A DNA stretch of 50,305 nt from contig JAJYYP010000006.1 of NCBI GenBank assembly GCA_021800855.1, positions 1 through 50,305 on the forward strand. Direction: 5' to 3'. Each line of letters opens with the position of its first letter. Position 1 is the first letter of the stretch. This stretch comes from an archaeon (GTDB taxonomy: Archaea; Thermoproteota; Nitrososphaeria; Nitrososphaerales; Gagatemarchaeaceae). Below the pieces are notes generated by a model that worked only from the letters and a program-made list of their open reading frames with translations, was not told the DNA's origin and did not search any database. The translations under genes and the position numbers were made by a program. Of this stretch, positions 482-11,100 are shown in pieces.

Positions 482-3352
482 ATGATTCCGAACCAGGACG
501 CCTTTCAGCTCCTTTCGCCACCACTGGTGGCTGCGCTGAAGGAGCGCGGCTTCGACTCCCCCACCGACCCTCAGGAGAAGCTCCTCCCCATCGTGAGGGA
601 GGGGAAGAATGCTCTCCTGATGGCTCCGACCGGGACAGGTAAGACCGAAGCCGCTCTATTGCCAATCCTGGATGCCATGGTCAGGGAGGGCGAACCGAGA
701 GAGAAGGGGACCAAGTTGCTCTACATCACTCCGCTCAGGGCGCTGAACAGGGACATGCTCGACAGGATGCAGTGGTGGTGCAAGCGCTTCGACATCAGGC
801 TCGGGGTCAGGCATGGGGACAGCTCCCAGTCTGAGCGGACCAATCTGAGCTTCGCCCCTCCGGACATCCTCATCACCACCCCTGAGACGCTGCAGATCCT
901 GCTGGTTGGCAGGAGGATAAGGCAGAACTTGGCAAAGCTGAGGTGGGTCGTGGTGGATGAGGCCCACGAGTTGTCAGAAGATAAGAGAGGGAGCCAGCTC
1001 AGCGTGGGGCTCGAAAGGCTCCGGGACGTGGCGGAGAAGGACTTCCAGGTGGTCGGCCTGTCTGCGACAGTCGGGTCCCCTGAGAAGGTGGCGCAGTTCT
1101 TGGTGGGGAGCGGGAGAAAATGCGAAGTGGTGCGTGTCCCGGTGGAGAAGAGCCTTTCACTGAGGGTAGACGCCCCCAGAGCTACAGGGGACGACAAGAT
1201 ACTCGCGGACTCTATCTACTCCTATCCAGAGGTCGCGGCGAGGCTCAGGACGGTGAGGGAGCTTGTTGAGAAGTACAGGTCGGTGTTGGTCTTCACCAAC
1301 ACGAGGTCTGAGGCAGAGGCCCTGTCGAGCCGCTTCAGGGTTTGGGACCCCAGCTTTCCCATCGCGGTGCACCACAGCTCCCTTTCGAAGGCGACCCGGG
1401 AGGCGGTCGAGAAGGGCCTCAAGGAGGGCAAACTGCTCGGGGTGATCTGCACGAGCAGCCTCGAGCTCGGGATAGACATCGGGTTCCTAGAATACGTGGT
1501 GCAGTACAACTCCCCCAGGCAAGTCACGAGGCTGATCCAGCGGGTTGGGAGGAGCGGACACAGGATCGGGCAGATCTCCAACGGTCTCGTCATCACCCAG
1601 GACTCGGACGACACCCTCGAAGCAGCTGTCCTTTGCCGCAAATCTGTCATGGGAGAGCTTGAGCCCCTCGAGCCTGTCTTCAACCCCTACGACGTCGCGA
1701 TACACCAAGTGGCCGGGCTCCTCATAGAGCAGACGAACTGGAACTTCGACGACCTGATGGCGCTCTTCAGGCGGAGCTACGCCTACGCGGACCTGGACGC
1801 CGACAGGCTGAAGAAGGTCCTCGCGTACATGAGGGAGAGGTATCCAAGACTCGCATATTACAGCGAGTCTGACGGGAAGGTGTTCCGAGCCCGGGACGTC
1901 AAACCTCTCTTCTCTTACTACTTCGACAACCTTTCGATGATCCCGGATGAGAAGCAGTATCTGGTCATCGAAGGTGACAACTTCGTCGGTACCCTGGACG
2001 AGGCCTTCGTCTCGGAATACGGGGAGGTCGGAGTGAAGTTCGTTGAGGCGGGGAGGTGCTGGAAGGTGGAGCAGATTTATGGGAACAAGGTCTACGTCAA
2101 GGCTGAAGAAGACCCCACTGGAGCCGTCCCTAACTGGGTGGGGGACGAGATACCCGTCCCAAGGGAGGTCGCTGCCGAAGTTGGCGCAGTGAGGAGGAGG
2201 TACGCCGAGGAGCTCTCAAAAGGGACAGGATCAAAGTACCTGGACGAGCTAGTACTGACCTACCCGATTTCCAGGGTAGTCCTCGAAGAGTCGCTGAAGG
2301 AAGTGGCCGAGCAGTACGAGGCGAAGCTCCCCATACCCTCGGAGAGACTGATCACCATCGAGAAGTGGGACAGGTTCATAGTGATTCAGGCAGCCTTCGG
2401 TCATCGGGTGAACAGGTTGCTCGCCAGGGTCATCGGACAAATCGTCTCCGAGAGGATTGGACAGTCGGTTGCGGTGCACCAGGACCCCTATCGGATAGTC
2501 ATAGAAGCCGACGCTTCGCCTGCTATGGTGCTCTCCGTAATAGAAGAACTCCACAAGCTCGATCTGAGAGTGGCGACCGAAAAGGCGGTAGAGAGGAGCG
2601 GGATTTTCAAACGGAGACTGATACACGCGGGGAAAAAATGCGGTGCTATAGCCAAGGATGCTGACTACGCAAGCGTCTCAATTTCGGGGATTATCGAGGC
2701 GCTCAGAGACACCCCGGTCTACGAAGAGGCGATGAGCGTGATTTTCCACGACGACTTCGACCTGGCAGGGGCGTCTGACGTGGTCGAAAAGATCCATGCC
2801 GGGGCCATAGAGGTAAAACTAGTGGAGTACGAAGCACTCACCCCCATAGCGCGCATCGGGGTCGAGGAGATCAGCAGGAGGGGGGAGATTGTCTCGCCCG
2901 AGAGGCTCAGGGCCCTACTCAAGCAGTCCACGAGAGCCAGGATCAACGAGACATTCTTGGTGGTAGTCTGCACCAACTGCTGGAACTTCCTCGAACTCAG
3001 GAAGGTCGTCGACCTGGAGGGGCTCGACAGGTGCCCCGCCTGCGGCAAGGCCGCCGTCGGGCTCTCGACCGACTCCTACGAGAACGTCTTCTCTCTCGCG
3101 ATGAAAGCGAGGAGTAGATCGGACCTCCGTGGAAGCAAGCAGAAGCTTGTGGAGTCGCTCAGGAAATCGGCTGAACTTAGGGCCGAGTACGGACATGCCG
3201 TTGACATACTGGTCGCCGGGAGGGGCATCAGGATAACCGACGCCTCGGCCCTGGCCGCGAAGATGAGGAAAGAAGGGACAGACGTGATCGAGCTGGCGAT
3301 AGAGGGCGAGAGAGAAGCGCTCCGCAGGCGCTACTTCTTTGCGGCTTCCTGA
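482..3352 (+). CDS. lhr: Lhr-family ATP-dependent helicase (first copy)
   Basis: Superfamily 2 3'-5' helicase of the Lhr type, 956 aa, within the usual archaeal Lhr range. Visible motifs: Walker A APTGTGKT (about 48-55), DEAH box VVVDEAHEL (about 157-164), motif III GLSAT (about 192), motif IV FTNTRSEAEA (about 271), motif VI QRVGRSGHR (about 353-361). A C-terminal Cys4 zinc site is seen as CTNC and CPAC (about residues 830-854). Lhr proteins unwind DNA and RNA:DNA hybrids and are linked to DNA repair. The ATG at 482 is preceded by a GAGG. The gene runs tail to tail into the Nse3-like gene with a 22-bp overlap. A second Lhr lies at 6777-9620 and the Smc5/6-like operon is between the two, suggesting a shared repair role (inference). 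Confidence 0.93.
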   Translation: MIPNQDAFQLLSPPLVAALKERGFDSPTDPQEKLLPIVREGKNALLMAPTGTGKTEAALLPILDAMVREGEPREKGTKLLYITPLRALNRDMLDRMQWWCKRFDIRLGVRHGDSSQSERTNLSFAPPDILITTPETLQILLVGRRIRQNLAKLRWVVVDEAHELSEDKRGSQLSVGLERLRDVAEKDFQVVGLSATVGSPEKVAQFLVGSGRKCEVVRVPVEKSLSLRVDAPRATGDDKILADSIYSYPEVAARLRTVRELVEKYRSVLVFTNTRSEAEALSSRFRVWDPSFPIAVHHSSLSKATREAVEKGLKEGKLLGVICTSSLELGIDIGFLEYVVQYNSPRQVTRLIQRVGRSGHRIGQISNGLVITQDSDDTLEAAVLCRKSVMGELEPLEPVFNPYDVAIHQVAGLLIEQTNWNFDDLMALFRRSYAYADLDADRLKKVLAYMRERYPRLAYYSESDGKVFRARDVKPLFSYYFDNLSMIPDEKQYLVIEGDNFVGTLDEAFVSEYGEVGVKFVEAGRCWKVEQIYGNKVYVKAEEDPTGAVPNWVGDEIPVPREVAAEVGAVRRRYAEELSKGTGSKYLDELVLTYPISRVVLEESLKEVAEQYEAKLPIPSERLITIEKWDRFIVIQAAFGHRVNRLLARVIGQIVSERIGQSVAVHQDPYRIVIEADASPAMVLSVIEELHKLDLRVATEKAVERSGIFKRRLIHAGKKCGAIAKDADYASVSISGIIEALRDTPVYEEAMSVIFHDDFDLAGASDVVEKIHAGAIEVKLVEYEALTPIARIGVEEISRRGEIVSPERLRALLKQSTRARINETFLVVVCTNCWNFLELRKVVDLEGLDRCPACGKAAVGLSTDSYENVFSLAMKARSRSDLRGSKQKLVESLRKSAELRAEYGHAVDILVAGRGIRITDASALAAKMRKEGTDVIELAIEGEREALRRRYFFAAS

Positions 3353-3891
3353 GCGCGCGAAAGGATTAGGGTCATCAGGGACTTTTCGTCGACTTCCGCC
3401 CTGGTCCTCCACCCTATGTGTAGCATCCCCTTGTCGTCCTGGTCGAGGTACCCCTTCTTGACGTACCTGTCCAGGGAGTAGTCGACGCGCCACCTCGGAA
3501 ACTTTTCGCGGAGGAACTGCTCGACTTCGCGCCGGGAGACGCGCCCTGACTTTGAGTTGATGAAAGCGATGCTGGCAGCGAGGACTGCAAGGTCGTCGAT
3601 GCGTATCCCTGACGTCTCCGCTTCGCTAATCGTCGGTGGCTCTTTGAACCTCAAAAGGAACCGCGAGGAGTCATCGGTGGCGTCCGGCCCCTTCACCTCG
3701 AACACCTCGAGCCCCATTGGCGCCACGTCTTCAGAGAGGACTTCGATTATCTTGCGGTAATCGCGACCCAAGTGCCTCCTCATCTCCCACCCCTTGACCC
3801 CCGGGTTCCGCCCGCGCTGAAGGACGAGTACCTGGAATGCCCTCCTTACCTTCCTCTCCAGCAGCGCCCTGTCTGCGCTCTCCGGCTCCAT
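3331..3891 (-). CDS. Nse3/MAGE-like winged-helix subunit of an Smc5/6-type complex
   Basis: 186 aa, last gene of a three-gene reverse-strand operon; its ATG overlaps the stop of the preceding gene (TGATG at 3889-3893). In eukaryotes Nse3/MAGE is a tandem winged-helix protein that binds the kleisin Nse4 and DNA. What I see: an N-terminal helical region (1-55), then a segment like MAGE domain B: GLEVFEVKG (about 60-68), a helix with AASIAFINSKSGRVSRREVEQFL (start about 105) matching the MAGE 'ILxxIfmkGnxIsEeexwefL' layout, and KKGYLDQDDKGMLHIGWRTR (145-164) followed by AEVD, matching the MAGE 'YLexxxxxxxxfxWGpRAhaEi' signature. The match is by eye and remote; other winged-helix proteins (ScpB-like) are the alternative. 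Context beside an Nse4-like and an SMC-like protein supports the call. Confidence 0.65.
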   Translation of the reverse strand: MEPESADRALLERKVRRAFQVLVLQRGRNPGVKGWEMRRHLGRDYRKIIEVLSEDVAPMGLEVFEVKGPDATDDSSRFLLRFKEPPTISEAETSGIRIDDLAVLAASIAFINSKSGRVSRREVEQFLREKFPRWRVDYSLDRYVKKGYLDQDDKGMLHIGWRTRAEVDEKSLMTLILSRAQEAAKK

Positions 3892-4649
3892 CAGCTGTCC
3901 CCCGTTATCGAGATGGCCACCGACTTTGGGGTCCCCTTTGCCCTCTCGGCGAGAGCCATCGTCCAGATCTTCCCGGTGAGGGGCTCGGTCTTCAGCAGCG
4001 CCCTCCCCTCGCTTATGAGGAAGGCAAGCAGGTACGCCCTCCTGACCTTGGCCCCGTAGCTTTCACCCTCTATGAACTGGCGGTAGTCCAACCATTCGCC
4101 ATTTGACTTCTGAAGGAGCTCGTCGTAGAGGCGGGTCAGGCCGAGTTCAAACTCTTCAGCGGTGAAGACGCCGAGGCTGACCAGGTCTGAATATTCTACG
4201 ACCCCGGGGATAATCCCATATGTTCCCAACTGGCTCTTGAAGCGCTCTGACATGGGAGTCAGCTCGCGCCAGTAGACGAAGGCCTTCTCGAGCCCACGAG
4301 AGGACAGCTGGTCCACCTGGGCGATTGGGTGCCAGCTCTTCACGAACGCCTCCGAAAGGGTCTCCTTGGGGAGTAGCTTCAGCTTCAGCTGAATGAGCAG
4401 TGGGTCTATGTAGAGGGCGCTGGCCCTCTGTTTAAGCCACTGGTCCTGGAGCTTTACTATTTGGGCGAGCTCGAGCATCGCTTCCGAGTCAACGAGCAGC
4501 TCGTCGAGGAACTTCAGCTCGGGGAGGCGCTGCTTCAGGAGCAATATCTTCTCCCGGATGTCTACGTCGAATGGATTGGCGCTGCTCGTCTCCACATCAC
4601 GGCAGAGTTCTATCACCCTCAGATAGTCGTCGAGCTTCGTCTGTTCCAC
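3891..4649 (-). CDS. Nse4-like kleisin of an Smc5/6-type complex
   Basis: 252 aa from a GTG at 4647-4649, directly after the SMC-like stop codon (TGAGTG). Residues about 45-90 contain LDELLVDSEAMLELAQIV followed by a basic helix, resembling the Nse3-binding part of Nse4, where an 'EAxLDxxxLVxASDL' helix is typical. Residues about 203-222 read RRAYLLAFLISEGRALLKTE, which resembles the Nse4 C-terminal winged helix ('NxFyxSFLvxDGRaxi'). Kleisins bridge the two SMC heads; Nse4 bridges Smc5 and Smc6. The order SMC, kleisin-like, winged-helix partner is also that of bacterial smc-scpA-scpB, so at minimum this is an SMC accessory subunit. The specific Nse4 assignment is inference from short similarities. 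Confidence 0.6.
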   Translation of the reverse strand: MEQTKLDDYLRVIELCRDVETSSANPFDVDIREKILLLKQRLPELKFLDELLVDSEAMLELAQIVKLQDQWLKQRASALYIDPLLIQLKLKLLPKETLSEAFVKSWHPIAQVDQLSSRGLEKAFVYWRELTPMSERFKSQLGTYGIIPGVVEYSDLVSLGVFTAEEFELGLTRLYDELLQKSNGEWLDYRQFIEGESYGAKVRRAYLLAFLISEGRALLKTEPLTGKIWTMALAERAKGTPKSVAISITGDS

Positions 4650-6686
4650 TCACTTCAGCTCCTTGACCTCTGACCCGCCGTGCACTGCCTGGACAGTTAT
4701 GACGTGAGCGCTCTTGTCGAAGACGGTGAGGATAGATGGGGTTATCACGATGTACTGTGACGCCTCCCTCTGCTTCATCTGAGAGAGTATCATCTTGAAC
4801 ATGGCCTCCCTGTTCTTGGGGTCCATGTGTATGTCGAACTCGTCGAGCGCCCTCAGGGGGGAGACGATCCTCGCCTGCAACGACAGGAGGAACGCCATCA
4901 GCGCCACCGACCGTTCGCCTCCGCTCTGCGTGAACGGGTCAAGGGTGGAGGGCGCTCCGCCCCGGAACCCCACATAGAGGTCGAACCCGGCATCCTCGAT
5001 GGCGTCGGCCTGCTCGAGCTTGATGAAACCGCTGGCGTCGGCGGCTGAGAGCACCGCCTGGTAAGCCGGGTCTACTGCCTCTACGAGGTCCTCCATCGCC
5101 TTCCTCCAGACCTCCTTGCGCGACCCGAGCTCCACGAGCATAGACTTCTTGTTTTCCTGGAGCTTGGCAAGCTTGACCTTAAGCTCCTCGATGTTCCCAG
5201 AGTAGTCGTTGTAAATCTTCTCAGCGTCGTCCGGGACGTCCTGCATCTTCTGGATGTGCGCCGATACCAGCTTCAGTTCCTCTGACACCTCGTAAGGCTG
5301 CCTGGCGGTCTCCATCCTAGCACCTGCTTTCTCTAGGTCGGGCGCGAGCTTGTCCAGCTCGGATCTATACTCCTTGGCACTCCGTTCGAGGTCGTGTAGG
5401 TCTGACTCGGTCACCCTGATCCTGTATGTCAGTACCTCCGCCTTCACCCTGAACGAGACGTAGCTTTCAGTGGTCCGTTTGATCAGCTCCTCGGTCCTGG
5501 TGATCTCCGGCTGGAGCGAAGACACCTCCCTATCGAGCTCCCCCTTTCTGCGCTTCGCGTCCTCTTCCGCGGCCTCTCCCTTCTTTTCGATATATTCGGC
5601 CAGGTCCTTCAGCCTCTTCCCACTCTTGTCCCCGCCCTTGGCCAGGAGCTCGTCTATGGTGTTCGAGAGCCCCGCCATGTCCTCCTTTATGGAACGATAG
5701 GCGTCCCTTGCTGATTCGTCCTTTGCCTTCTCCGACTCCGCCCTTATGAGCGCGTAGTACAGCTTTCTGAGCTCGACCTGCTTGTCGAGAAGGGTCTGGT
5801 GCATCTGCTCGGCGTCGGCCGTCACCTCGGCCTGCTGGGACTTCAGATCCTCCAGCGCCCTGGTCTTCGACATGATCTTCTCCTCCGCAATCTGGAGCGC
5901 TTTGCTCAGCTTGGCTTCAGTGCACCACAGGAGCTCCTTGGAAAGGAGGTCGCGGTGCTCGATCAGCTTCCTCTTCTCCTGATAGCGGTCGTACACCTGC
6001 TTCCAGTATTCTAGCGCCTGGTTGGCGTTGTCAATCAGTTGAATGAGTGAACTCTCCTCCCCGACGAGGCCGCTCAGCTCCTGCTCGGCGAGCAGAATCC
6101 TTTGCCTGTACTCGGAGAACCCGACCGCTTCCTCGACCATCCTCAGCCTTTCTTGTGGGGTGACGGCGCCCAGCTCTTCAATCATCCCCTGGTGCATTAT
6201 AATCAGTAGGTTGTCGGGGTTGATGCCGAACTCGCGGAGCAACCTGACCACTTCGCTCTTATCAATCTCCTTGTAGTCTGCCTCGAACCAGTATGAGCCG
6301 TCACGCCTGAGGTAGCGGCTCAGCATGAAGGTGTCGGACTTCGAATATGGTATCGGCCTGCGACCTGCCTTCGCGGAGTTGTCAAAGACGAGGGAGACCC
6401 TGGCTATCTCTTTGCCCCTTCGGATGAGGTCTGAGAGCTTCCGAGAGCGTTCAGTGTATGCTTGACCGAACGCGACTGAAATCGCCAGTAGCACTGAAGA
6501 CTTGCCTGCCCCGTTGGGACCGACTATCAGGTTCAGCCCTTCACGCAGGGGGATCCTGGCATATTCGTAACTCATGAAGTTCTCAAGGATGATCTCCTTG
6601 ACGGTCGTGAGGTGGGAAGGCCTCTCTTGGGAGACCTCTTTGACGCTGCGGGACAAGCTTACAGGCTGCGCGAACCCTGGACGCAT
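4650..6686 (-). CDS. SMC/Rad50-like ABC ATPase, Smc5/6-related, with short arms and no hinge
   Basis: 678 aa. Walker A GPNGAGKS at about 56-63, Q-loop region IIMHQGMI (162-169), then VTPQERLRMVEEAVGF (175-190), a typical SMC/Rad50 stretch. Two coiled-coil arms span about 195-345 and 365-535. ABC signature FTQSGGERSVALMAFLLSL (585-603) and Walker B SPLRALDEFDIHMDPKNR (609-626) are closest to Smc5/Smc6, which carry 'LSGGERS' and 'xDEFDvxMDxxNR'. Between the arms there is only a short glycine/lysine-rich turn (about 348-362): no SMC hinge domain and no CxxC zinc hook, and the total is far below the 1000-1200 aa of true SMCs. The start is the ATG at 6686; later starts are possible since conserved sequence begins near residue 28. 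It shares a divergent promoter region with the second Lhr gene. Confidence 0.8.
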   Translation of the reverse strand: MRPGFAQPVSLSRSVKEVSQERPSHLTTVKEIILENFMSYEYARIPLREGLNLIVGPNGAGKSSVLLAISVAFGQAYTERSRKLSDLIRRGKEIARVSLVFDNSAKAGRRPIPYSKSDTFMLSRYLRRDGSYWFEADYKEIDKSEVVRLLREFGINPDNLLIIMHQGMIEELGAVTPQERLRMVEEAVGFSEYRQRILLAEQELSGLVGEESSLIQLIDNANQALEYWKQVYDRYQEKRKLIEHRDLLSKELLWCTEAKLSKALQIAEEKIMSKTRALEDLKSQQAEVTADAEQMHQTLLDKQVELRKLYYALIRAESEKAKDESARDAYRSIKEDMAGLSNTIDELLAKGGDKSGKRLKDLAEYIEKKGEAAEEDAKRRKGELDREVSSLQPEITRTEELIKRTTESYVSFRVKAEVLTYRIRVTESDLHDLERSAKEYRSELDKLAPDLEKAGARMETARQPYEVSEELKLVSAHIQKMQDVPDDAEKIYNDYSGNIEELKVKLAKLQENKKSMLVELGSRKEVWRKAMEDLVEAVDPAYQAVLSAADASGFIKLEQADAIEDAGFDLYVGFRGGAPSTLDPFTQSGGERSVALMAFLLSLQARIVSPLRALDEFDIHMDPKNREAMFKMILSQMKQREASQYIVITPSILTVFDKSAHVITVQAVHGGSEVKELK

Positions 6687-6746
6687 TTAGACATTGCTGA
6701 CCGCGCAGTCGATATTCACTTTCGGTCATCCCTCTCTAACTACTCC

Positions 6747-6752
6747 TTAAAT
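6747..6752 (+). promoter_or_regulatory. TATA box for the second Lhr gene
   Basis: TTAAAT at 6747-6752 lies about 27 nt before the TTG at 6777, the spacing expected for a leaderless archaeal transcript. This fixes the start of the second helicase at 6777 instead of upstream in-frame codons that would overlap the divergent SMC-like gene. Confidence 0.6.
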
Positions 6753-6776
6753 CGGCGGGAGCCCTCCAGAAGGTGC

Positions 6777-9620
6777 TTGCCAAACGAGACAGCGTTCGAG
6801 TCCCTCGCGCCGGCTGTGAGGGAGTTTCTGGCTGACACCGACATCAGGGAGCCGACCCCCCCACAGGTGAAGGCGTGGCCGCTCATCGCCAGAGGGGAGG
6901 ACGTACTCGTAGTGGCCCCGACCGGGTCGGGGAAGACCGAAGCGGCCCTCCTCCCGCTGCTGAGCAGGCTGGTGCGCGAGGGGCACGGGGAAGGTATCTC
7001 TCTCCTCTACATCACGCCGATGAGGGCCCTGAACAGGGACATGCTGAAGAGGCTCCAGGAATGGTGCATGAAGCTCGGGCTGACGGTCGACATAAGGCAC
7101 GGAGACACCCCTCAAGCGCAGAGGGCGAAGCAATCGGCGCATCCCCCCGACGTGTTGGTAACGACGCCAGAGACCCTTCAAGCAGTCCTCCCCGGAAGGC
7201 GGATGAGGGAGAATCTCTCCCACCTGAGGGCCGTCGTCGTCGACGAGCTGCACAACCTTGTAGAGAGCAAGCGTGGGGTCCAGCTCTGTGTGGGTCTTCA
7301 GCGGCTCAGGAAGGTCTCGCCTGACTTCCAGCTCGTCGCGCTTTCTGCTACGATTGGGACTCCAGATGCAGCAGGCACCTTCCTCTTCGGAGACCGGCCT
7401 CGGACTCTGGTGAAGGCGGACGCCCCCAAGGAGTTCTCATATGCCATCGAATACCCCGTCCCCGATTCGTCGAGCCAGCCGACCTCGAAAGAGACGTACG
7501 CCGCTCCCGACCTAGCGGCAAGGCTATCCAGGATAAACTCCATGATTGACGAGCACACATCGACGCTGATATTCGTCAACAGCAGGACCCTGGCAGAGAT
7601 GATGGGGGAGAAGTTCGCGAGGCTGAGGAAAGACGTGGGGGTACACCACGGCTCGCTTCCGAGGGAGGAGCGAGAAAGGGTCGAACAGGCATTCAAGTCT
7701 GGCGAACTGAAGGCGCTCGTCTGCACCAGCACCCTGGAGCTCGGCATAGACGTCGGATCTGTCGATCTGGTGGTGCAGTACATGTCTCCGAGGCAGGTTA
7801 CAAGCCTGGTCCAGCGTGTGGGGAGGAGCGGCCATAGGCTCGGAAAAGTGTCGAAGGGGGTTCTGGTGACCGTGTCGGCGGACGACATACTTGAATCGTC
7901 GGCCGCCATAGGCTCGGCGAGCAAGGGTAGGATTGAACCGACCCGCCCCTACGTGAACTCTCTGGACGTGCTTGCGCACCAGATCGCAGGCTACCTCATG
8001 GACTTCGAGGCCATGGAACCAGACAGGATGCTGGCCGAGATCAGGAAGGCGGCGCCGTTCAGGGGCCTGACTGAGGACGCCTTCCTCCGCACGGCGAACT
8101 ATCTCTCCGAGCTAAGAAAGATCAGGTTCGACGGCAAGACGCTCGTGAGGACGAGGCTCACCCGCGAATATTACTACGAGAACCTCTCCATGATCCCTGA
8201 TGAGACCCGTTACCTGGTGGTCGACGTCTCCACCAACCAGACCGTCGGGATACTCGGCGAGGAGTTCGTCCTCCTAAGGGCGAAGGTGGGAGTCCATTTC
8301 ATCATCAAAGGCAAGGTCTGGCAGATCGAGCAGATAGCTGACGACAGGAAGATCTACGTCACCCCCGTCGAGGACCCCCTAGCTGCCGTCCCAGGGTGGG
8401 ACGGGGAGATGCTGCCGATACCATACGAACTTGCGGCCGAGACAGGGCGGTTGAGGAGGGAGATTTCAGAGGCTCTGGACCTTGGGGACGGGGCCGTGGA
8501 GTCGGTCGGGAAGAAGATCCCTGGAGAGGCGGCTGCCCGGGCGCTGGTGGTCGACCAGATCGCCGAGCACAAGAAGATGGGAGCCCCGGTACCGTCGGAC
8601 AAGTTGGTACTCTTCGAAGGGTTCGGGAAGTACCTAATCGTCCACCTCTGCTTCGGAGAGTCGGTGAACCGGACGTTCGCTTACGTGTTCGAGGAAGTGC
8701 TTTCGAGACGGGGGCTGGTCAGGGTCTGGTGGCTCGACGGCTATCGGCTGCTGATGGAGCTCACGACGGACACCGAGGAGCTCGACCTCAAGGCGTTGGC
8801 GAAGGAGCTGATGGGGCTGACCCCAGAACAGCTGGAAAGGACCTACGCGGTGGCCGCCCAGAGGAACTTCCCGTTCCCGGCCAGGGTAAAGTTCGTGGCA
8901 GAGAGGTTCGGCGCCCTGAAACGAGGGAAGCTCATCGCGCATCCGAACCTGTGCTCACTCCCGACGAGGTTCGAGAGGACACCCATCTTCGAGGAGGCGT
9001 TGCAGGAGACAGGGAGAGACCTCATCGACATTGAAAGGGGGAAGCAGATTCTGGTGGAGGTCGCCAACAGGGGGATAGCGGTGGAGACCTTTCAGGCGGG
9101 AGAGAGGCCCACCCCCATCGCCTACAACCTCCTCTACAGGTACCTTGAGACCCCGGAGGCGGTCGCGCCCGACTCCCTCGGCAGGTCGTCATACCAGAGG
9201 ATGAAGGCGAGCATATTCGGCACCGAGGTGAGTCTCATATGTGTGAGGTGCGGCGCGGACCAGGGGCAGACCACGGTCGGAGACATCCCGGAAGAGCCGC
9301 GATGCGGCGCCTGCGGCTCGGGGTTGCTGGTCCCCTGCTACTGGGGGACAGCCAAGCTGACTGACCTCGTGAAAAAAAGAGAGAAGAGAGCGCAGCTCAA
9401 CGAGGAGGAGAGGGCCGAGCTCGCCAGAGCGAGGAGAGGGGCTGACCTCGTCCTCTCTTATGGGAAGAAAGCCGTGGTCGCCCAGACTGTCTACGGGATA
9501 GGCCCCCAGACGGCATCGAGGATTCTGGCCGAGATGCACGACGACGAAGAGGCGTTCTATAGGGACCTGCTCGAGGCGAAGATACGTTTCGTCACTACCA
9601 GGCAGTACTGGGGCAACTGA
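6777..9620 (+). CDS. lhr: Lhr-family ATP-dependent helicase (second copy)
   Basis: 947 aa from the TTG at 6777, chosen because a TATA box sits at 6747-6752 and the homology with the first Lhr begins here (FESLAP). Motifs: APTGSGKTE (Walker A), VVVDELHNL (a DELH box, unlike the DEAH of the first copy), ALSATIG, FVNSRTLAEM, QRVGRSGHR. The C-terminus has a Cys4 zinc site (CVRCG and CGACG, about residues 821-845) and a helix-hairpin-helix-like GIGPQTASRIL near the end. It leads a likely operon with the 227-aa unknown protein and the phosphoesterase at 10342. The two Lhr proteins share the whole domain layout but differ clearly, so they are distinct paralogues, not a recent duplication. Confidence 0.92.
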   Translation: MPNETAFESLAPAVREFLADTDIREPTPPQVKAWPLIARGEDVLVVAPTGSGKTEAALLPLLSRLVREGHGEGISLLYITPMRALNRDMLKRLQEWCMKLGLTVDIRHGDTPQAQRAKQSAHPPDVLVTTPETLQAVLPGRRMRENLSHLRAVVVDELHNLVESKRGVQLCVGLQRLRKVSPDFQLVALSATIGTPDAAGTFLFGDRPRTLVKADAPKEFSYAIEYPVPDSSSQPTSKETYAAPDLAARLSRINSMIDEHTSTLIFVNSRTLAEMMGEKFARLRKDVGVHHGSLPREERERVEQAFKSGELKALVCTSTLELGIDVGSVDLVVQYMSPRQVTSLVQRVGRSGHRLGKVSKGVLVTVSADDILESSAAIGSASKGRIEPTRPYVNSLDVLAHQIAGYLMDFEAMEPDRMLAEIRKAAPFRGLTEDAFLRTANYLSELRKIRFDGKTLVRTRLTREYYYENLSMIPDETRYLVVDVSTNQTVGILGEEFVLLRAKVGVHFIIKGKVWQIEQIADDRKIYVTPVEDPLAAVPGWDGEMLPIPYELAAETGRLRREISEALDLGDGAVESVGKKIPGEAAARALVVDQIAEHKKMGAPVPSDKLVLFEGFGKYLIVHLCFGESVNRTFAYVFEEVLSRRGLVRVWWLDGYRLLMELTTDTEELDLKALAKELMGLTPEQLERTYAVAAQRNFPFPARVKFVAERFGALKRGKLIAHPNLCSLPTRFERTPIFEEALQETGRDLIDIERGKQILVEVANRGIAVETFQAGERPTPIAYNLLYRYLETPEAVAPDSLGRSSYQRMKASIFGTEVSLICVRCGADQGQTTVGDIPEEPRCGACGSGLLVPCYWGTAKLTDLVKKREKRAQLNEEERAELARARRGADLVLSYGKKAVVAQTVYGIGPQTASRILAEMHDDEEAFYRDLLEAKIRFVTTRQYWGN

Positions 9621-9656: not shown

Positions 9657-10340
9657 TTGGTTCTAGCAGGGAAGGTCTTCCTCGTGAGAGAGAACTACGA
9701 GCTCGACACGCTGGCTGACAAACTGAAGTCGTTCAGGATAGAGACTGAGACGAGCGTCGAAGACAAGGAGTTCAAGCTGGTATCTGAAGTCACCGACCTG
9801 AGCGTTGGGAAGGGGTCCCTGGAGGGCAAGTTCTCCTTCGACTCGGTCTTCGTTGTCCCGCACCGGGGGGAGCCGGTCCCGGTCCCGCGGACCTACGAAG
9901 CCCCCTTCACCTTCAGCATGTACAAGGACAGGATGTTCCTGACGGTCTACGACAAGAAGAGCAGGGCGAACAACATCGCGAACGAGATGAGCAAGGCGGT
10001 GTTCATGAGCCTCGGGCAGGTGGTGGAAGCCAGAATCGACCCAGAGACCCTGAGGAAGTTCCACGAAGCCAACTTTGAGGACACGAAGGTGATATTCTAT
10101 TCTGAGGTGGATCTGCCGAACATCACCAAGCTTTCGCTCTACGGCGCCGAGCTCGGTAACACCAGCCTTTACAGTGATTATTTGACCCATGGGAAACTGT
10201 GGTACATCGTCTTCAAGAGCAAGTCCTATGGCTACGTTTTCGGCCTGACCAGGAACTGCATACTCACCGGCTTCAGCAAGATGGAGCTGTCCGAGTTCAA
10301 GAGCTTCATCGACGCCCAAGTGCTCCCGCTCATCGCCTAG
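9657..10340 (+). CDS. Uncharacterised protein between Lhr and its phosphoesterase
   Basis: 227 aa from a TTG at 9657, 36 bp after the helicase stop and one base before the next start codon, so almost certainly cotranscribed with both. I do not recognise a family. No signal peptide, membrane segment, cysteine-rich motif or nucleotide-binding loop is visible; it is rich in predicted beta strands in the first half (residues about 1-110) and mixed alpha/beta afterwards, with an aromatic stretch KLWYIVFKSKSYGYVFGL near residues 180-197. Context suggests a partner of the Lhr/phosphoesterase pair in nucleic-acid processing (inference only). Confidence 0.8.
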   Translation: MVLAGKVFLVRENYELDTLADKLKSFRIETETSVEDKEFKLVSEVTDLSVGKGSLEGKFSFDSVFVVPHRGEPVPVPRTYEAPFTFSMYKDRMFLTVYDKKSRANNIANEMSKAVFMSLGQVVEARIDPETLRKFHEANFEDTKVIFYSEVDLPNITKLSLYGAELGNTSLYSDYLTHGKLWYIVFKSKSYGYVFGLTRNCILTGFSKMELSEFKSFIDAQVLPLIA

Positions 10341-10341
10341 T

Positions 10342-11100
10342 TTGCTCAAAATAGTCCCCTGCGACGCAGCACTCATCTTCTCGACCGCCGAGTCGAAGAC
10401 GCTTCTGGTCTCAGACCTGCATCTTGGGCTCGAGAAGGAGATGGCGAAGAAGGGATTCCGCCTCCCTGCCTACTCGGTGAAGATGGTGGAACGGGTGAAG
10501 CGGATAGCGGAGACCTACGGCGCGAAGAGGCTCGTCGTGCTTGGGGATGTCAAGCACACGGTCGGTAAGGTGGAAGACATAGACTGGGGGGTGATACCAT
10601 GGTTCTTCGACACCATGCTGGACCTGTTCGAGGCAGTGGAGGTTGTCCCCGGAAACCATGACGGCAACATCAGGACGGTGCTACCCCCCCGGGTCAAGCT
10701 GGATCCGTCGCAGGGGACGGTGCTGGGAGAGGGGAAGAACAGGGTCGGGGTGGCTCACGGCCACGCCTGGCCTTCGGAGGCAGCGATTGCGACGAGGAAC
10801 CTGGTAATCGGCCACTCGCATTTCACATATGAGATGCGTGACTCGTTCGGGTCGAGGACGAGGGAGTCTGTTTGGGTTACCGCGGAATTCGACGTAGCCG
10901 AGCTGATGGAGGGGGCGGGCTACAGGTCAAAGCTGAAGGGCAATGGAAAGCTGACTGTGATGCCACCGTTCAACAGGCTGGTGGGAGGTCAGCCCATTAA
11001 CCGGAGCGCGTCTTTCCAGTTTGGGCCGGTGCTCTCGTCGAGGTCGCTTAGCCTAGGGAAGGCAGACATATTCCTCACGGACGGGACGAGGGTGACCTAG
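10342..11100 (+). CDS. Calcineurin-like metallophosphoesterase associated with Lhr
   Basis: 252 aa, TTG start one base after the upstream stop. The five metallophosphoesterase motifs are visible in order: SDLHLG (about 26-31), GDVKH (about 68-72), GNHDG (about 105), AHGHAW (about 135-140) and GHSHF (about 154). These bind two metals and mark phosphodiesterase or nuclease activity. Single-domain enzymes of this type (COG1407, 'ICC-like') are often encoded next to Lhr helicases in archaea and bacteria, as here. The C-terminal third has no metal motif and may bind substrate. The gene meets the thioredoxin gene tail to tail with a 5-bp gap. Confidence 0.88.
   Translation: MLKIVPCDAALIFSTAESKTLLVSDLHLGLEKEMAKKGFRLPAYSVKMVERVKRIAETYGAKRLVVLGDVKHTVGKVEDIDWGVIPWFFDTMLDLFEAVEVVPGNHDGNIRTVLPPRVKLDPSQGTVLGEGKNRVGVAHGHAWPSEAAIATRNLVIGHSHFTYEMRDSFGSRTRESVWVTAEFDVAELMEGAGYRSKLKGNGKLTVMPPFNRLVGGQPINRSASFQFGPVLSSRSLSLGKADIFLTDGTRVT

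Follow-up and report, generated by a model that had tools for sequence, protein, structure and literature searches.

Gene organization at the locus

The minus strand of a 50,305-nucleotide archaeal stretch of DNA (contig JAJYYP010000006.1; hereafter the window) carries three consecutive genes encoding proteins of 678, 252, and 186 aa (Table 1). The three reading frames lie as a preliminary description of the locus had placed them, with spacings of 0–1 bp: the stop codon TGA of the ATPase gene is followed directly by the GTG of the 252-aa protein (gap 0 bp), and the 252-aa and 186-aa genes overlap by 1 bp at TGATG (spacing -1 bp). The motifs quoted in that description, QSGGERS, LDEFDIHMDPKNR, and YLDQDDKGMLHIGWRTRAEVD, are likewise all present in the window proteins. 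Residues D615, E616, D618, H620, D622, and R626 of the ATPase Walker B segment are invariant in the alignment. A methionine at codon 11 of the ATPase is conserved among its aligned relatives, so translation probably starts there (~6656) instead of at 6686. Archaeal RNase P and archaeal SRP RNA are both found in the window, indicating an archaeal genome.

Table 1. Features of the three-gene locus and its neighbours (positions are those of the window).
Feature	Position	Strand	Description
Smc5/6-type ATPase, hinge-less	4650-6686	-	678 aa; true start likely near 6656
Walker A, GPNGAGKSS	6495-6521	-	Sequence; columns mostly invariant in alignment
ABC signature, QSGGERS	4908-4928	-	Sequence and alignment
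Walker B, LDEFDIHMDPKNR	4809-4847	-	Sequence and alignment
Kleisin, GTG start	3891-4649	-	252 aa; N-terminal helical part ScpA-like
Kleisin C-terminal winged-helix region, ~residues 165-235	3945-4157	-	Nse4_C / ScpA-C like
Kite protein, 186 aa	3331-3891	-	Two winged-helix domains, ~residues 1-90 and 95-186
Lhr-type helicase, convergent neighbour	482-3352	+	Faces the operon 3' end; conserved at 47/72 loci with enough sequence
Second Lhr-type helicase, divergent neighbour	6612-9620	+	Mainly in close relatives

The start codon of the second Lhr-type helicase is uncertain, as its listed GTG falls within the ATPase reading frame. Beyond this helicase, on the same strand, a 227-aa protein with no Pfam match (9657-10340, +) is a possible functional partner; at 35 of the loci fetched, ORFs that appear related to it form a cluster divergent to the operon, a relationship judged by eye. 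The next gene encodes a calcineurin-like phosphoesterase (10342-11100, +), and similar genes occur near the operon in 12 loci.

The ATPase and its two partner proteins

Sequence comparisons support the assignment of the ATPase head to the Smc5/6 type, apart from canonical SMC. When the single ATPase sequence was searched against the PDB, Smc5 scored 98 bits, Smc6 80, and prokaryotic SMC 73, while an ATPase profile matched Smc6 (219 bits), Smc5 (204), prokaryotic SMC (179), and Smc2 (173). A canonical SMC of a related genome best matched a Pyrococcus-type SMC (320 bits), as expected. A maximum-likelihood tree of concatenated head segments was rooted on zinc-hook Rad50-like proteins. Smc5/6 was represented in it by four sequences and Smc1-4 by none; PDB alignments supplied the eukaryotic, Pyrococcus, and Bacillus sequences. 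In this tree the archaeal family, Smc5, and Smc6 form one clade (support 99/96), within which the order is not resolved and the archaeal family may be either a sister group or a paraphyletic source; canonical SMCs of the same archaeal lineage group separately with bacterial SMCs (100/98). The PDB searches and the head tree therefore agree with the preliminary placement of the ATPase closest to Smc5 and Smc6. The NCBIfam ASRP model scored the window ATPase at 41 bits against a cut-off of 300.

The ATPase is about half the usual SMC length and has no hinge. The hinge model PF06470, which matches a canonical SMC at 1.4e-18, did not match the window ATPase or 8 further family members. Walker A and the signature motif are 429-594 residues apart in all but one of 161 members, as against 1046-1060 residues in canonical SMCs of related genomes. 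In the shortest members (~560 aa) the two arms together have roughly 200 residues, which is too little for a hinge. Without one, the complex cannot close the classical SMC ring, and a short ATPase of this kind marks a sister-type variant rather than Smc5/6 itself. If the Smc5/6 ancestor bore a hinge, the archaeal family lost it and would represent a sister lineage, not a direct ancestor. No CxxC zinc hook was found in the ATPase family outside one long, odd member. That protein (L117:1924-5055, -), from a Bathyarchaeota MAG, has 1044 aa, a long coiled coil, and a CDKC motif resembling the Rad50 zinc hook; a search of its genome found neither kleisin nor kite.

For the two downstream proteins the signal comes from homologue sets alone, as searches of the single window sequences against Pfam and NCBIfam gave nothing significant and the Pfam family Nse4_C (PF08743) did not match the window 252-aa protein by itself. 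Weak matches to Sec61_beta, DsbE, and DHU1_N were dismissed as chance. When 55 homologues of this protein were scanned singly, Nse4_C matched 29 (best 3.5e-7) and was the sole recurrent family, whereas the ScpA Pfam model matched 0 of 55 at the threshold used. A profile of the 55 members matched Nse4 in the PDB at E=2.3e-5 (yeast) and 1e-4 (human EID3), with a weak match of its N-terminus to ScpA (0.048); in a 38-member profile, the N-terminal part matched ScpA (0.0017) and the C-terminal part Nse4 (0.0018). A canonical archaeal ScpA profile also aligned with the C-terminus in hhalign (probability 94.8). The predicted structure is of low overall confidence (pLDDT 75.6, pTM 0.44), and Foldseek returned weak matches (E 0.016 at best), headed by the winged helices at the C-termini of ScpA, Nse4, and Scc1. 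Both ends by sequence, and the C-terminal end also by fold, thus place the protein in the kleisin superfamily. Together these comparisons support a kleisin with an Nse4-like C-terminal domain, predicted to bind SMC neck and cap. The preliminary description had proposed Nse4-like segments at both ends; this holds for the C-terminal one, but the N-terminal one looks ScpA-like, and profile searches of the family returned no match to the Nse4 N-terminal domain.

The AlphaFold2 model of the 186-aa protein is of higher quality (pLDDT 92.9, pTM 0.81) and contains two winged-helix domains. Foldseek ranked MAGE-G1 (5e-6), Nse3 (6.5e-6), and Nse1 (3.8e-5) at the top, with MukE (2e-4), JetB (7e-4), and ScpB (8e-3) lower. 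By sequence, a profile matched Nse3 (7e-4) and Nse1 (0.026) in the PDB, and a broader profile did so more weakly (Nse3 0.01, Nse1 0.06), behind a designed repeat protein (0.0016); this protein and TruD, which also appeared in the kite profile lists, were dismissed as chance. Among 54 kite members scanned, MAGE matched 3 and Nse1 matched 5, all weakly, and Pfam detected no RING domain in the 186-aa protein. From its modelled fold and these profiles, the protein is predicted to be a tandem winged-helix kite of the Nse1/Nse3 kind, about equally near to both. The MAGE-like label first proposed for it is too narrow.

Distribution, linkage, and copy number

The three-gene set is widespread in archaea, many of them uncultured, and travels together. 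One genome per species was scanned at the DNA level for the Walker B motif DEFD[VI][HYF]MD. The scan returned at least 119 loci; 110 of the 119 matches listed are true loci, and the other nine are chance matches. All three genes are present at 87 of these 110 loci, which argues that the association is not due to chance, and another 15 run off the end of the fetched stretch. The remaining 8 of the 110 listed loci hold an ATPase without adjoining partners, and in 7 of these 8 genomes (mostly ANME-1-like) kleisin and kite adjoin each other elsewhere, in one case ~3 kb from the ATPase on the same contig. At every locus fetched for a true ATPase orthologue, kleisin and kite come directly after the ATPase; one kleisin contains a masked stretch. 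Among the candidates rejected, L045-L047, initially caught as ATPase homologues, proved to be zinc-hook (CxxC) Rad50/ASRP-like proteins, and L040 a canonical SMC fragment.

The listed true loci come from Thaumarchaeota/Nitrososphaeria, Bathyarchaeota, Hecatellales, Methanomethylicota, Methanodesulfokora, Thermofilales, Geothermarchaeota, Culexarchaeum, Hadesarchaea, Methanophagales, and one Thermoplasmata MAG, and none of the 110 is from Asgard archaea. The Thermoplasmata-titled MAG (WOYO01000046.1), which has all three genes, stands far apart from the other groups and may reflect transfer or mis-binning. Of 61 genomes searched at a loose threshold that includes canonical SMCs, 58 gave an ATPase match; at E<=1e-30 the family proper was present in 62 of the 300 class genomes. 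Sampling of 299 genomes from the phylum gave kleisin in 125 and kite in 122, essentially the same genomes; the three extra kleisin-positive genomes comprise two marginal matches and one contig-edge case. Strong kleisin matches also came from 16 of 148 genomes in the phylum to which the ANME-1 member belongs.

Each gene is normally present once. The ATPase family has one member per genome as a rule, and the kite has one full-length copy per positive genome in the sample of 299. One close relative (G009) carries two closely similar ATPase copies that share 98% and 89% identity with the query. One family of the same order (f10, e.g., G045 and G059) has near-complete genomes of 1.2-1.8 Mb, probably of ammonia oxidisers as judged by inference; kleisin and kite were not matched in these near-complete genomes, which suggests that both were lost there.

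Canonical ScpA genes occur separately in other genomes of the phylum that have the three-gene set. The ScpA model of Pfam (PF02616) matched nothing in the G000 genome and 40 relatives, though canonical SMCs are present. Because PF02616 scores archaeal ScpA-like proteins weakly, this absence is not firm, and a divergent ScpA is likely.

A probable SMC-kleisin-kite complex of the Smc5/6 clade and its relation to known systems

Profile searches, predicted folds, and the head tree largely support a three-part Smc5/6-like reading, and we estimate a probability of roughly 0.85 that the three genes encode an archaeal SMC-kleisin-kite complex within the Smc5/6 clade. The best matches of the three proteins were neither to unrelated families nor to ScpA and ScpB only, and the idea of an Smc5/6-like operon was thus not refuted. 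The further proposal of a counterpart of the whole Smc5/6-Nse3-Nse4 core went too far: SMC and kite are each encoded by a single gene, Nse1 is matched as well as Nse3, the kleisin N-terminus looks ScpA-like, and the hinge is absent. Because the kite resembles Nse1 as much as Nse3 and the genes are normally single-copy, the set resembles a pre-duplication, homodimeric version of the complex. We tentatively suggest, at somewhat less than even odds, that the operon keeps the whole DNA-clamping module of Smc5/6 (heads, an Nse4-type kleisin, and an undivided Nse1/Nse3-type kite) in single-copy, pre-duplication form with the hinge lost. It would then be the first hinge-less SMC-kleisin-kite complex and a living model of the state before Smc5 split from Smc6 and Nse1 from Nse3.

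The strongest competitor to an Smc5/6-clade complex, though an unlikely one, is a generic, fast-evolving prokaryotic SMC-kleisin-kite set of the ScpAB, MukEF, or Wadjet kind, whose likeness to Nse proteins would reflect only a shared superfamily fold. The fit of the kite to MukE and JetB, its modest sequence E-values, and a kleisin that best matches ScpA at its N-terminus and also matches it at its C-terminus would all speak for such a set. Yet ScpB falls far behind Nse1 and Nse3 by kite fold, Nse4_C recurs among kleisins in which the ScpA model finds nothing at the threshold used, the ATPase lies within the well-supported Smc5/6 clade, and canonical ScpA is encoded separately in other genomes of the phylum with the three genes.

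Two readings that start from the short ATPase appear less probable still. A defence system against plasmids or viruses, of the Wadjet or Lamassu kind, would accommodate the matches of this short SMC-like protein to LmuB, mad3, and JetC in PADLOC, and both Smc5/6 and Wadjet act on foreign DNA (reviewed in PMC10586767). We consider it improbable, as kleisin and kite have no PADLOC match, no conserved nuclease or effector gene (JetD included) was seen beside the three genes in the neighbourhoods examined, and the set is usually single-copy and kept with its Lhr neighbour across distant archaea, unlike patchy defence islands. The absent hinge, the short coiled coil, and the CxxC of one distant member, a possible zinc hook, would instead fit a RecN/Rad50-like repair ATPase with two unrelated winged-helix partners and no SMC-kleisin complex. 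This reading is very improbable given a head closest to Smc5/6 with Rad50-like proteins far outside, a kleisin-type C-terminal domain with Nse4_C matches, and the kite fold of the 186-aa protein.

For an Smc5/6-clade complex, we infer the assembly, stoichiometry, DNA clamping, and repair role as follows. By homology, ATP would bring the heads of two copies of the short ATPase together, and the kleisin would bridge them, its N-terminal helical domain contacting one head at the neck and its C-terminal winged helix contacting the other at the cap. The middle region of the kleisin would carry a pair of kite subunits, giving two ATPases, one kleisin, and probably two kites. Eukaryotic Smc5/6 clamps DNA on top of its heads (PMC9191643). 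The parts that do so appear to be retained in the archaeal proteins while the hinge and long arms are absent, so ATP-driven DNA clamping would be the most likely activity. The complex might thereby clamp or entrap DNA in the head-kleisin compartment and partner Lhr-type helicases. Linkage to the Lhr gene suggests a role in DNA repair or recombination, or may merely be synteny. We favour, at somewhat less than even odds, a compact clamp that is driven by ATP and acts on DNA intermediates of repair or recombination.

How Smc5/6 arose is an unsettled issue in eukaryotic chromosome evolution. The ATPase, kleisin, and kite of one archaeal operon each lead to Smc5/6, which suggests that the core complex already existed as a unit before eukaryotes, and three small proteins offer a way to test its ancestral form. 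Confirmation that the hinge is missing would show for which SMC functions heads, kleisin, and kite suffice.

The operon can be set against several known systems. A preprint by van Hooff et al. (2024) reportedly deals with the prokaryotic roots of SMC complexes and may already report kleisin and kite; it lies outside the literature searched here, in which we found no description of an archaeal Nse4- or Nse1/3-type partner. Earlier publication of archaeal Smc5/6-related ATPases, mentioned in the preliminary description, is confirmed: PMC9389158 divides SMC proteins into two clusters, one of which unites eukaryotic SMC5 and SMC6 with the archaeal "SMC5/6-related" SMCs of Yoshinaga and Inagaki (2021), for which the ATPase alone is described and no partners are given. 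The ATPase described here very probably belongs to this same family. 

Among archaeal proteins, the ASRPs (ClsN, Sph) are also short SMC-superfamily ATPases; most carry a zinc hook, and no kleisin or kite partner is named for them in the literature covered here. MukBEF and Wadjet JetABC likewise combine SMC, kleisin, and kite, and the archaeal kite fold matches MukE and JetB, but their SMCs are other kinds of SMC. Wadjet additionally carries the JetD nuclease (PMC10586767). Canonical archaeal Smc-ScpA, which co-occurs with the operon in archaea, shares an SMC ATPase and a kleisin with it, but has a hinge and belongs to another SMC clade. It is also reported to work generally without a kite (PMC7055376), and archaea would thus gain an SMC complex with one.

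Another close counterpart is the eukaryotic Smc5/6 core (Smc5, Smc6, Nse1, Nse3, and Nse4). The archaeal operon encodes no Nse2, Nse5, or Nse6, and its set lacks the hinge and the RING domain on the kite. Where eukaryotic Smc5/6 has paralogous pairs of SMC and kite proteins, the archaeal set has one gene for each, and the two share the ATPase heads, an Nse4-like kleisin C-terminal domain, and a kite closest to Nse1 and Nse3.
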